Source: Planctomycetota bacterium (lineage in GTDB: Bacteria; Planctomycetota; Planctomycetia; Gemmatales; Gemmataceae). From it: 64,000 nucleotides of DNA. The notes beneath the pieces were generated by a model. That model did not search any database. It saw nothing but the letters and a program-made list of their open reading frames with translations, and was not told where the DNA came from. The first letter of the stretch is position 1, and each line of letters starts with the position of its first letter. The stretch covers positions 1-64,000 of the forward strand of contig JAIOPV010000109.1 of the NCBI GenBank assembly GCA_021413735.1, read 5' to 3'. This document shows positions 23,756-45,686 of the stretch, in pieces. The position numbers and the translations under genes were made by a program.

Positions 23756-23855
23756 GTTTAGCCGCGACGCGGAGTCTTCGTAGCGGAGCCCGTGGAGTTA
23801 AAACCGCTCCGCTACGAACGCGCTCCGCTACGAAGACTCCGCGTCGCGGCTAAAC
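23756..23855. repeat. REP-like palindrome with 34-bp arms beside the RAYT gene
   Basis: Positions 23756-23789 and 23822-23855 are perfect 34-bp inverted repeats starting gtttagccgcgacgcg. The 32-nt loop holds a third partial copy of the arm sequence (ccgctccgctacgaa). The outer end of the right arm contains the TAG stop of the RAYT gene. The same gtttagccgcgacgcg string ends nuoI at about 27888. Confidence 0.9.
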
Positions 23856-24455
23856 CGCATGGGGTTTGTATGGGGTAACGAACGACCACCGCTGTTGTGG
23901 GAGTCCGGCCTTCACGGGGTTATTCTCGACATATTGGACCGCAGACGCAATGCGTTCGTTATCGTTGAGGAAAACTTTCCATTCACCCCGTGCCCAACAC
24001 TTTGGGGGCAGTTCAGCCGGATTCGCAAGATCAGCAAATGGGTGAAGCCGTTCATCGAGAAGTGCAGCGGTTGCCTCGCCCTTCAACTGGATGACGATTT
24101 GTTCGACCGACAAGCGGAACGGCCCCACGACGAGATGCACATGATCCGGCATGATGGCACACGCCCAGACCGGCAGCCCCGAGCGAGCAACGTAGTCGCG
24201 AAATCCGTGGCCGATGGCTCGTGCCTGCAACCCGGTGAACTTCACAGGCGGTCGAGCAAGTTCGCGTTTGACCGCCAAGCGTTTCGAGCGATCATGTGGA
24301 TCGTACGCCAACGAACGCGATTCGGTTGTCTTGGTCGCCTTTCCGCCAGCGAGAAACAGTTCCCACGCACCCACGAACTCGGACCACGAACCACGCGGAT
24401 CGTTCGGCAACCAAAAGCCATACGCGCTGAAAATGATGTGATAACCCAGAACCAT
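23850..24455 (-). CDS. REP-associated tyrosine transposase (RAYT, Y1/HUH family)
   Basis: A 201-aa single-strand DNA transposase related to IS200/IS605 TnpA. The family start MVLGYHIIFSAYGFWLPNDP fixes the ATG at 24455 rather than the upstream GTG. The HUH motif is in ACAIMPDHVHLVVGP. The C-terminal YVENNPVKAGLPQQRW is the classic RAYT catalytic-tyrosine segment. RAYTs are domesticated enzymes thought to spread REP palindromes. Here the gene ends inside the 34-bp-arm palindrome, which supplies its TAG stop, an arrangement expected for a RAYT with its cognate repeat. It lies between nuoC and nuoD, oriented like the nuo genes. Confidence 0.9.
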   Translation of the reverse strand: MVLGYHIIFSAYGFWLPNDPRGSWSEFVGAWELFLAGGKATKTTESRSLAYDPHDRSKRLAVKRELARPPVKFTGLQARAIGHGFRDYVARSGLPVWACAIMPDHVHLVVGPFRLSVEQIVIQLKGEATAALLDERLHPFADLANPAELPPKCWARGEWKVFLNDNERIASAVQYVENNPVKAGLPQQRWSFVTPYKPHAV

Positions 24456-31125: not shown

Positions 31126-31154
31126 AACAAAGGTTTCCGCATGAGGAACCTTCT

Positions 31155-32735
<1,581 letters not shown>

Positions 32736-32737
32736 GA

Positions 32738-33270
32738 AGAGAAGAGTTTTATCCGCAGATTACGCAGATAGACACAGATTTGAAAACCAAGACGGAGAGT
32801 TGAAAGACAGAGATACGAAAGGGAGACGACGATGGAAAACGATCCAAGGACATACGCGCTGATCGGCGCGGCTATGGAAGTGCATGGCCAACTTGGGTGT
32901 GGATTCCTCGAAGCCGTTTATCAGGAGGCGTTGGAAATCGAGCTCGTGGCACGTGGAATTCCGTTTCGACCGCAAGTCGAACTTCCAATTCGCTACAAGG
33001 GACGAGTGTTGAAGACGTTCTACAAAGCCGACGTCCTCTCACATGATGCGGTTGCGGTTGAGATCAAAGCTCTCTCGCAGCTCGGGCCGGCTGAAGAGGC
33101 CCAAGTGCTCAATTACTTGAAAGCAACCGGATATGATACCGGGCTGTTGTTGAACTTCGGCCGCACCTCGCTCCAATACAAGCGGTACGTTCGCACGCAA
33201 GCTGAGAACCCGGAGTCCTGATTTTTAATCTGTGTCTATCTGCGTAATCTGCGGATAAAAACTCTTCTCT
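32738..33270. mobile_element. Inverted-repeat-bounded cassette carrying a GxxExxY gene
   Basis: The 43 bases 32738-32780 and the 44 bases 33227-33270 are inverted repeats that match except for one T (four versus five in a T run). Both contain atccgcagattacgcagat and agacacagatt. The 446-bp interior holds only the GxxExxY gene. The left repeat begins 2 bp after the purH stop and the right ends 9 bp before the start of the M42 peptidase gene. No clear target-site duplication was found. Mobility is inferred from the structure, not demonstrated. Confidence 0.7.
32832..33221 (+). CDS. GxxExxY family protein (PD-(D/E)xK nuclease-like)
   Basis: A 129-aa protein with the signature GCGFLEAVYQEALEIEL (GFLEAVY). 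Two further core segments follow: LPIRYKGRVLKTFYKADVL and AVAVEIKALSQLGPAEEAQVLNYL. The Asp in KADVL, the E-x-K in VEIK and the Q/N of QVLNYL match the PD-(D/E)xK nuclease core, as known for the family. The physiological role of these proteins is not established. It is the only gene inside a 0.53-kb cassette with long inverted repeats, as described for that element. The purine-rich gggagacgac before ATG 32832 could act as a ribosome site. Confidence 0.93.
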   Translation: MENDPRTYALIGAAMEVHGQLGCGFLEAVYQEALEIELVARGIPFRPQVELPIRYKGRVLKTFYKADVLSHDAVAVEIKALSQLGPAEEAQVLNYLKATGYDTGLLLNFGRTSLQYKRYVRTQAENPES

Positions 33271-33279
33271 GGAGAGCTA

Positions 33280-34350
33280 GTGGAATATCTGTCGCACGAG
33301 TTTCTCAAGTCACTGCTCGAAACGCCAAGCCCGTCGGGGTTCGAGCAGCAAATTCAGCACGTCGTTCGCGAGCGAATGAAGCCGTTCTCGGATGAAGTGA
33401 CCACCGATTCGCACGGCAACGTCTTCGCGGCACGCTTCCCCGAGTGGCGAGGAGACACCACCCCGCGAATCATGCTCGCCGGGCACTGCGACCAGATCGG
33501 CCTCATGGTGCAGTACATCGACAGCGAAGGCTACCTCTACATCCAGCCCATCGGCGGCTGGGACATGCAGATCCTCCTCGGCCAATACCTCACCGTCTGG
33601 GCGAAGGATGGGCCGATCACCGGGGTCGTTGCACGACGAGCCATTCACCTCCTCAAGCCCGAAGAACGCAGCAAGGTGCCCGACTTCACCGATGTGTGGG
33701 TCGATATCGGTGCCAAGAACCGCGAAGAAGCCGAGTCGCTCGTGCGCTGCGGTGATCCGCTCACGTTCGCGCTCGGCTATCGGCCACTGCGGAACAGCCT
33801 CGCGGCAAGCCCAGCGATGGACGACAAGGTTGGCCTGTGGGTGTGCATGGAAGCCGTGCGGTTGCTGCAAGGTCGGCCACTGAAGGCGTCGGTTTATGGC
33901 GTTTCCACTGTGTCGGAAGAGATCGGGCTTCGCGGTGCGACCACGGCGGCGTATGCCATCAATCCCACGGTCGGCATCGCGGTCGATGTGACGCACGCGA
34001 CAGACACGCCCGGCAACGACAAGAAGACGCAAGGCGACATCAAGTGCGGGGGCGGCCCCGTGCTGTATCGCGGACCGAACATCAGTCCGCGTGTGTTCGA
34101 TCTGCTCGAAACGACCGCGAAGGCTCACGAGATTCCCGTGCAGGTTCGTGGAACGCCGCGAGCCACCGGCACCGATGCGAACGCGATTCAGATTGCTCGG
34201 GCAGGTGTCGCGACCGGGCTCATCGGCATCCCGAACCGCTACATGCACAGCCCTGTCGAAGTGATTCACCTTGATGACCTCACGAACGCCGCGAAACTGC
34301 TCGCGGAGTTCTGTGCCACCGTCGGCCCTGAAACGAACTGGATTCCGTGA
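33280..34350 (+). CDS. M42 family metallopeptidase (deblocking aminopeptidase-like)
   Basis: A 356-aa cytoplasmic cocatalytic metallo-aminopeptidase of the FrvX/glutamyl-aminopeptidase family. Metal-site and catalytic segments are visible: LAGHCDQIGLMV (His, Asp), SPAMDDKVGLWV (Asp), VSEEIGLRGATT (Glu pair), AVDVTHATDTPG (Asp) and NRYMHSPVEVI (His). The start is a GTG (gtggaatatctg) just outside the right arm of the GxxExxY cassette; the original promoter could have been displaced by that insertion. It may trim N-termini or short peptides; the substrate is not predictable. Confidence 0.93.
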   Translation: MEYLSHEFLKSLLETPSPSGFEQQIQHVVRERMKPFSDEVTTDSHGNVFAARFPEWRGDTTPRIMLAGHCDQIGLMVQYIDSEGYLYIQPIGGWDMQILLGQYLTVWAKDGPITGVVARRAIHLLKPEERSKVPDFTDVWVDIGAKNREEAESLVRCGDPLTFALGYRPLRNSLAASPAMDDKVGLWVCMEAVRLLQGRPLKASVYGVSTVSEEIGLRGATTAAYAINPTVGIAVDVTHATDTPGNDKKTQGDIKCGGGPVLYRGPNISPRVFDLLETTAKAHEIPVQVRGTPRATGTDANAIQIARAGVATGLIGIPNRYMHSPVEVIHLDDLTNAAKLLAEFCATVGPETNWIP

Positions 34351-45132: not shown

Positions 45133-45686
45133 GCGTCGGATGGTAGCCAGGGGTGGAGCGAAGCGCAACCCCTGGAAACGCAAACGTAAATCCAAAAACG
45201 CGAACCAGCCAATCACCCAAGCCCCGGAGGGGCGACAGAAGTTTCAATCGTCGACGACCGACCATGTGAACCGCGACTTCCACGATCCATCGCAATGGAG
45301 GTATTCCAGAAACGCTTGCGTGATTTGGGCTATGGTCAGATGCCCGTCAGCAACGAGAAGATCTCCCGCCGGAGCGCGATACTCCAATCGGAAAGGAGTG
45401 GAACCCGTCTCCCGGAGAAACCTCGCGGACACTTCTCCTGGCTCCCACATACAAGCTACCTGGATAAACGCTTCCTCAGACGCAGACAACACAGCGAATT
45501 TTCCGAACGTCTCTTCCGTCAATATCTGTTCAAGCTGGTCTGCGGTCACGTCCTCGATTTCGGGAAGATCGTCGGTCGTGAGTCGCATCGTTCTGTCGCC
45601 CCTCCGGGGCTTGGCGTTCTGTATATCGTCGGCTTCCAGGGGTTGCGCTCGAAGACTCGCTCCACCCCCTGGCTACCATCCGTCGC
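45133..45686. mobile_element. Second inverted-repeat cassette enclosing a 114-aa gene
   Basis: Two nested pairs of inverted repeats. The outer pair, 45133-45177 versus 45634-45686, shares cggatggtagccagggg and gcgcaacccctggaa with small indels. The inner pair, 45217-45240 versus 45591-45614, is a perfect 24-bp match (ccaagccccggaggggcgac...). The enclosed gene fills 45244-45588 exactly between the inner repeats. The layout and size (~0.55 kb) parallel the GxxExxY cassette at 32738. Mobility is inferred. Confidence 0.65.
45244..45588 (-). CDS. Small protein of unknown function inside an inverted-repeat cassette
   Basis: A 114-aa protein starting MRLTTDDLPEIEDVTADQLEQ. It has an Asp/Glu-rich N-terminus, a central FAVLSASEEAFIQVACMWEPG, then RLEYRAPAGDLLVADGHLTIAQITQAFLEYLHCDGSW. 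The pattern FIQ...LEYR...AFLEYL..W resembles immunity-type or other small cytoplasmic families, but no family is assigned. The coding sequence ends 3 bp from one inner repeat and starts 2 bp from the other, strongly suggesting that gene and repeats travel together. Confidence 0.65.
   Translation of the reverse strand: MRLTTDDLPEIEDVTADQLEQILTEETFGKFAVLSASEEAFIQVACMWEPGEVSARFLRETGSTPFRLEYRAPAGDLLVADGHLTIAQITQAFLEYLHCDGSWKSRFTWSVVDD

Follow-up and report, generated by a model that had tools for sequence, protein, structure and literature searches.

The window, a 64-kb stretch of Gemmataceae (Planctomycetota) DNA taken at its full length, holds a single small gene enclosed by inverted repeats between purH and a gene for an M42 peptidase. 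The region is laid out as follows.

31146..32735, + strand: purH, the upstream neighbour (NF002049, 710.5 bits); its TGA stop lies 2 bp short of the left arm
32738..32780, + strand: left inverted arm, 43 nt (inverted-repeat alignment)
32753..32779, + strand: iteron array of the left arm, with CGCAGAT at 32754-32760 and 32763-32769 and CACAGAT at 32773-32779 (spacing 9 and 10)
32832..33221, + strand: GxxExxY gene, 129 aa, predicted PD-(D/E)XK nuclease (TIGR04256, PF13366, alignment, model)
33227..33270, - strand: right inverted arm, 44 nt, with one extra T (inverted-repeat alignment)
33228..33254, - strand: iteron array of the right arm, inward-facing (word matches)
33280..34350, + strand: M42 peptidase gene, the downstream neighbour (PF05343, 295.4 bits); its GTG start lies 9 bp past the right arm

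An earlier note on this DNA had described one GxxExxY gene inside inverted arms of 43 and 44 nt that differ by one T, with the left arm 2 bp beyond the purH stop and the right arm 9 bp ahead of the next gene. With the gene intact, the purH stop ending at 32735 and the GTG at 33280, those coordinates are exact and the distances correct, and the Pfam match bears out the naming of the next gene as an M42 peptidase. The arms are 97.7% identical over 44 columns, with the single extra T, and both contain three tandem words, CGCAGAT-CGCAGAT-CACAGAT, 9 and 10 bp apart and reading inward. When up to three mismatches were allowed, a 19-nt core of the arm was found twice in the 64-kb window, both copies being exact, against an expectation of 0.03; none of 100 shuffled windows contained two copies.

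An inverted-repeat scan of 864 kb returned five pairs with loops of 200-1000 nt, three of which enclose a GxxExxY gene; within this sample, contigs of the window's genome (G000) were partly picked at known matches, and only the part from G002 is blind. The same scan of one Markov-resampled copy per stretch (864 kb) found no pairs. The blind 400 kb of G002 gave no such inverted pair and contained 31 hairpins. Elsewhere in the window, a 100-nt hairpin (23756-23855) lies beside a weak Y1_Tnp (RAYT-like) match (23919-24212), the whole (23756-24212) perhaps being a REPtron-like unit, and a second inverted pair (45217-45614) has identical 24-nt arms with GCCCCGGAGGGGCGACAGAA, ~350 nt apart.

By its sequence, the window gene is a clear member of the GxxExxY family (TIGR04256; Pfam PDDEXK_3), its product scoring 137.5 bits against TIGR04256 (cut-off 35) and 129.8 bits against PF13366 (cut-off 22). 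Only these two families match the protein at E 0.001, and it is thus neither a Y1 HUH transposase nor S23p. Residues G24, E27, Y30, D67, E77 and K79 are invariant in a 44-sequence alignment, and we take D...ExK to be the catalytic motif. The ExK portion appeared altered by eye in three of the 36 relatives' proteins (L077, ELN; L080, EIE; L083, DPK), and some GxxExxY copies may be inactive as nucleases. No sequence relative with a solved structure was found at E 0.1. An AlphaFold2 model of the window protein (pLDDT 90.2) gave 4ic1 as the best Foldseek match (E 7.8e-5), followed by lambda-type exonucleases (E >0.001); VIA-align scored 4ic1 at Z 10.0 and every other structure below 8. 4ic1 (SSO0001) is a Cas4. 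Judged from the alignment and the model, the protein looks like an intact PD-(D/E)XK nuclease, predicted to be Cas4/lambda-exonuclease-like. For gene pairs, pN was below pS in 9/9, with pS near saturation in most; purifying selection probably acts on the window's gene, whose product is probably active. Searches for a defence or phage annotation gave no PADLOC match at E 1 and no PHROGs match at E 0.1.

Inverted arms and iteron words at GxxExxY genes

The window's genome encodes eight GxxExxY genes, six of which are surrounded by long inverted arms (32-67 nt). A seventh copy (L031) has related but weaker arms, and the eighth (L028), close to a contig end, has a word of the same kind on one side only. 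Arm words match within a locus and vary between most loci.

In all, 178 loci were read, and dropping 16 duplicate proteins and seven loci with cut flanks left 155: 45 from relatives, 76 from a multi-phylum scan and 34 further copies. Among the first 36, from a search of 41 genomes of relatives, the inverted-arm score reached at least 16 in 30, while the direct orientation did so in two. Over all loci, 105/155 reached 16 and 81/155 reached 20, the multi-phylum part being drawn from the best 80 loci. By set, inverted arms were found in 38/45 loci of relatives, 44/76 multi-phylum loci (from the best 80) and 23/34 further copies in 16 genomes. Scores in the direct orientation reached 16 in 27/155 loci, and inverted-arm scores fell below 16 in 50/155; both figures count against the miniature-element reading given below. 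For controls, we scored ParE toxin genes from the 41 genomes, which had inverted arms in 1/29 cases, and, as a positive control, Y1_Tnp (RAYT-type) genes from 19 related genomes, which had arms in 16/29, GC-rich and REP-like; each set comprised 30 loci, one being left out as too short. At the multi-phylum loci (best 80), no mock gene of 750 scored, compared with 16/76 same-locus direct comparisons. Inverted comparisons across these loci scored in 354/5700 cases, because the words themselves are common to the loci.

The multi-phylum scan took the best 80 loci with a GPGLLES-type pattern and hence samples one subclade. Record titles among these 80 include Planctomycetota, Chloroflexota, Acidobacteria, Verrucomicrobia, Bacteroidetes, cyanobacteria, Proteobacteria, Chlorobiaceae, Parachlamydiales and two archaea, most of them metagenome-assembled genomes. 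Arms are absent in some groups within this set, and the two archaeal loci score 17 (L206) and 8 (L198). One copy (L148, 2717-3088) has an in-frame stop, either because it is decaying or through a sequencing error; in the multi-phylum arm scoring, its downstream flank starts inside the gene, owing to this internal stop.

Enough flank for placement was available at 84 of the 105 armed loci (the other 21 having too little), and, with ORFs called mechanically, a main upstream ORF was found in 81. This ORF is co-directional in 63/81, and where it is, the arm begins a median of 6 nt past its stop codon, within -10 to +20 in 42/63. The downstream ORF is co-directional in 57/84. The suggestion that such units sit at gene borders is thus upheld.

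A typical multi-phylum arm (best 80 loci) reads AACCACAGAGACACAGAGACACAGAGA. Tandem words of the form CRCNRAK occur at 112/155 loci and face inward on both sides in 78; outward-facing ones occur at 37 loci and flank both sides at 13. The words show a spacing peak at 8-10 bp across the 155 loci, the multi-phylum ones from the best 80 included. Neither control set had CRCNRAK words on both sides of any gene (ParE, 0/29; Y1_Tnp, 0/29). A Bacteroides fragilis primer by an invertible promoter ends in CTCTGTGTTCTCTGTGGTG, the word class of the pan-phylum arms, as given in the available part of PMC3090145.

The last base of the word varies with the protein. Among proteins with GPG..E it is G in 82 and T in one, whereas among proteins lacking the P it is G in two and T in 12 (Fisher 1.6e-12, uncorrected for kinship). 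This comparison is confined to loci that have three or more words and a clear motif, 97 in all (three further loci lacked a clear motif), and 64 of the 82 GPG..E/G loci derive from the subclade-biased scan of the best 80. Coupling is also seen in the set of relatives alone (12:0 versus 0:7, p 2e-5) and, more weakly, in the 16-genome set (6:1 versus 2:5, p 0.10). Over 89 loci, for pairs below 0.6 protein similarity, a Mantel test likewise uncorrected for kinship gave r 0.31, the largest of 999 permutations being 0.17. A functional unit itself predicts co-inheritance of word and protein over such distances.

Gene-less hairpins and the purH site

One test set by the earlier note was whether the repeat occurs elsewhere than here, and it does: its 27-nt word form has 14 matches in the window's own genome with up to three mismatches. 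Gene-less inverted pairs of the window's word are complete on contigs C75, C119, C190, C222 and C8 (five in all) and degraded on C135 (one), with singles on C34, C162 and C283. Two of the gene-less hairpins (L019 on C119 and L024 on C135), in opposite orientation, have an arm and visible loop that are near-identical by eye, making them candidates, on sequence likeness, for a recent copying event. In a sample of the same genome (L114-L133), other words of low complexity (GTGTTTAG, AGCTATC and AAAGTCGTAACGTC types) form numerous gene-less hairpins, to which no gene is assigned.

The word GGCCACAAAAANGCACAAA, searched for in 19 genomes belonging to the genus, gave 0 to 129 pattern matches in each, and a reversed-word control in the same genomes gave none. 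Five genomes with a gene-bearing copy had 9, 38, 62, 107 and 129 matches, compared with 0 to 52 in the other 14 (one-sided Mann-Whitney p 0.005). The window's word is likewise more frequent where a gene-bearing copy exists (p 0.035, three gene-bearing genomes), with G013, whose orthologous arms have drifted from this word, counted as lacking one. Word matches often come in plus/minus pairs about 80-300 bases apart. Genomes G011 and G017 have no GxxExxY gene and no match to GGCCACAAAAANGCACAAA or the window's word. The pattern is plainly broken by G005, whose draft assembly yielded 67 matches of the window's word but no GxxExxY gene; either the repeats outlast a lost gene or the gene falls in a gap of the draft.

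Within the genus, purH could be read ahead of M42 in 17 genomes (counting G000), and the site between the two genes was compared in these. Three have the gene with arms (G000, G013 and G016); 11 have a hairpin without a gene, in most cases built from a different word or of a different type; and three have no clear hairpin, G005 among them, with a 1.3-kb spacer. That the cassette might be fixed at one place in all relatives, the other test set by the note, is thereby ruled out. On an M42 tree, the supported sister of G000 (G008) has no gene, and the three carriers need three changes, at least two of them forced by supported branches, so that gain and loss are not distinguishable.

Neither an exact empty site nor a target duplication was found at the purH site or in comparisons of G007 with G009 and G012; syntenic sites in these genomes had other or nested hairpins, or a flank that was not found. 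At four intergenic sites, G007 and G009 have unrelated hairpins. Hairpins are nested in hairpins at G007 L334-L349, where CGCGGAT-type words lie either within or around arms of the GGCCACAAAAA type. Unrelated hairpins at shared sites, together with nested ones, imply that the exchangeable thing is the hairpin, with or without a gene. In sequence comparisons, related sites resemble the replacement of one hairpin by another, and nesting, more than clean insertion. A loxP-like 34-mer in G009 (L232:11901-11934) resembles what we take to be a sequencing mate-pair linker and is likely assembly contamination.

Arms within a locus change in concert. In 19 related locus pairs, 61 substitutions had occurred in both arms versus 68 in a single arm (15 other), and 11 internal indel events were concerted versus four confined to one arm; were the arms independent, nearly all changes would be expected in one arm alone. 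Single-arm counts are limited here by the setting of arm ends by similarity, pairs sharing a locus are not independent, and indels were counted in internal columns only, many indel columns at arm ends being artefacts.

A proposed miniature element and its rivals

The earlier note's view of gene and repeats as one unit has strong support: the two occur jointly across phyla, word class tracks protein subclade, and gene-less versions exist. The description as a mobile cassette was incomplete, the unit being embedded in a wider population of hairpins that lack a gene. As for 'nuclease-driven' and 'homing to repeats', these are terms for what the predicted protein may do, and movement, DNA cleavage and iteron binding are likewise things that we infer. 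The reading we prefer, at a probability of about 0.6, is a self-contained miniature element that consists of the gene for the predicted Cas4/RecB/lambda-exonuclease-like nuclease and inverted iteron arrays (CRCNRAK every 8-10 bp) and works as proposed below. Gene-less hairpins with the same arms would then, going by the words they share, be its non-autonomous relatives.

The strongest rival, which we nonetheless consider unlikely, operates at the level of RNA: the arms would form a long stem in a polycistronic transcript, be cut by RNase III and be kept for mRNA processing, with the nuclease a passenger or acting on RNA. Consistent with this, the unit often lies right after the stop codon of a co-directional gene (63/81), and arms or hairpins are present at the purH site in 14/17 genomes despite changing sequence. 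There is also a precedent in the 23S intervening sequence of Coxiella, which, in the portion of PMC4990558 available, has a 28-bp terminal stem and a loop ORF and is cut by RNase III. However, of the single mismatches between arms at 81 loci, read on the mRNA strand, 80 are G-U, 64 are A-C and 112 are transversions, so G-U shows no clear excess over A-C, and it is not clear that RNA pairing maintains the similarity of the arms; as an RNA stem maintained by pairing, the structure leaves no clear signature in its mismatch spectrum. The words, moreover, recur across phyla and track protein subclade, neither of which a mere stem needs. Nor is a known RNA family indicated, as Rfam gave no match at E 1 within 1 kb of the unit.

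Somewhat less probable again is that the gene is cargo, the hairpins being spread by another enzyme (RAYT tyrosine transposases are frequent in these genomes) and GxxExxY having a separate role, for instance in repair or defence. Y1_Tnp matches are indeed present in 15 of 19 genomes searched, with 16/29 in inverted arms, and 50/155 GxxExxY loci lack arms. But the Y1_Tnp arms are GC-rich palindromic modules, none of the 29 with CRCNRAK on both sides, and G007, without any Y1_Tnp match, has 46 matches of the GGCCACAAAAA word. Word identity tracks the GxxExxY subclade, and neither PADLOC nor PHROGs gave a match. RAYT hairpins are rejected on protein family and words alike.

That a small gene merely happens to fall inside hairpin-rich intergenic DNA is favoured by the hairpin-richness of these genomes (31 in 400 kb of G002) but is so improbable that we dismiss it, since arms surround 0/750 mock genes and 1/29 ParE genes versus 105/155 GxxExxY loci, the same words occur in other phyla as well as in G002 and G007, whose genomes are single contigs, and chance is also rejected on the core counts and shuffles and on the resampled scan.

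For the miniature element, we propose the following working. The gene would be expressed by read-through from the upstream gene, whose stop codon is observed a few bases ahead. Its product would recognise iterons of its own class, as the coupling of subclade and word suggests, and may nick or otherwise process arms that have folded into a hairpin or cruciform. The two arms would become identical through repair, or through fold-back synthesis on the opposite arm, which is consistent with the concerted changes. Finally, the same synthesis may place copies of the hairpin or the whole unit at further intergenic positions, frequently at or within hairpins already present, a step suggested by the nested hairpins and the site-by-site replacement.

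A wider version of this reading, which we put forward tentatively and hold to be rather less probable than the element itself, is that of an undescribed, bacteria-wide class of mobile elements. GxxExxY nucleases would read inward iterons of their own class and open the arms as hairpins; fold-back or template-switch copying would homogenise the arms and seed gene-less hairpins into gene borders and existing hairpins; and S23p four-helix units with 7-8 bp words, the 23S rRNA intervening sequences included, would form a parallel lineage that follows the same principle.

Relation to known repeat-borne systems

RAYT/REPIN systems, in the parts of PMC3116915 and PMC3733652 available, combine a small enzyme gene in inverted repeats with many gene-less hairpin doublets between genes, the repeat groups being enzyme-specific. 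To that extent, the unit described here resembles RAYT REPtrons or TIRtrons and REPINs, with an enzyme gene in inverted repeats and gene-less inverted doublets as hairpins. It differs in that its enzyme is a PD-(D/E)XK nuclease and theirs a Y1 HUH transposase, and in having tandem 7-nt words rather than GTAG palindromes; by eye, there is no GTAG in either window arm. RAYT units of related genomes have arms other than CRCNRAK words. The best reading, by analogy, is that the unit is a nuclease-encoding counterpart of RAYT/REPIN (TIRtron) systems.

A second likeness is to the 23S rRNA intervening sequences and S23p genes (TIGR02436), which share a unit size of ~0.4 kb, terminal inverted repeats and one small ORF. 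In Coxiella, heptamers precede the S23p ORF of the 23S intervening sequence, which has a terminal stem (PMC4990558, available in part), and heptamer repeats are reported in Beggiatoaceae, again in a source available in part. Unlike those sequences, our unit encodes a protein other than S23p, lies between protein genes (purH and M42) rather than in rRNA, and has words of different length and sequence. In relatives, TIGR02436 four-helix-bundle (S23p) genes (L234-L263; 30 loci, two partial matches being left out) had inverted arms in 21/28 cases and direct ones in 4/28, and these arms consist of 7-8 bp tandem words of AGTTCCA, GTGTTTTG and AAGGCGG types. The S23p loci look like a parallel system, which may include the 23S rRNA intervening sequences. 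MITEs and insertion sequences share terminal inverted repeats and short gene-less relatives with our unit; in contrast to them, it has no transposase. No target duplication was found at the compared syntenic sites, which hold other or nested hairpins.

In the literature outside subscription titles, we found no description that ties the GxxExxY family to flanking repeats. Words such as CACAGAGACACAGAG, which recur beside GxxExxY genes in many phyla, gain a candidate owner, and a widespread nuclease family without an assigned role gains a testable function and a candidate target site. These data suggest that the hairpin-with-enzyme lifestyle, known from RAYT transposases, arose more than once with unrelated proteins.
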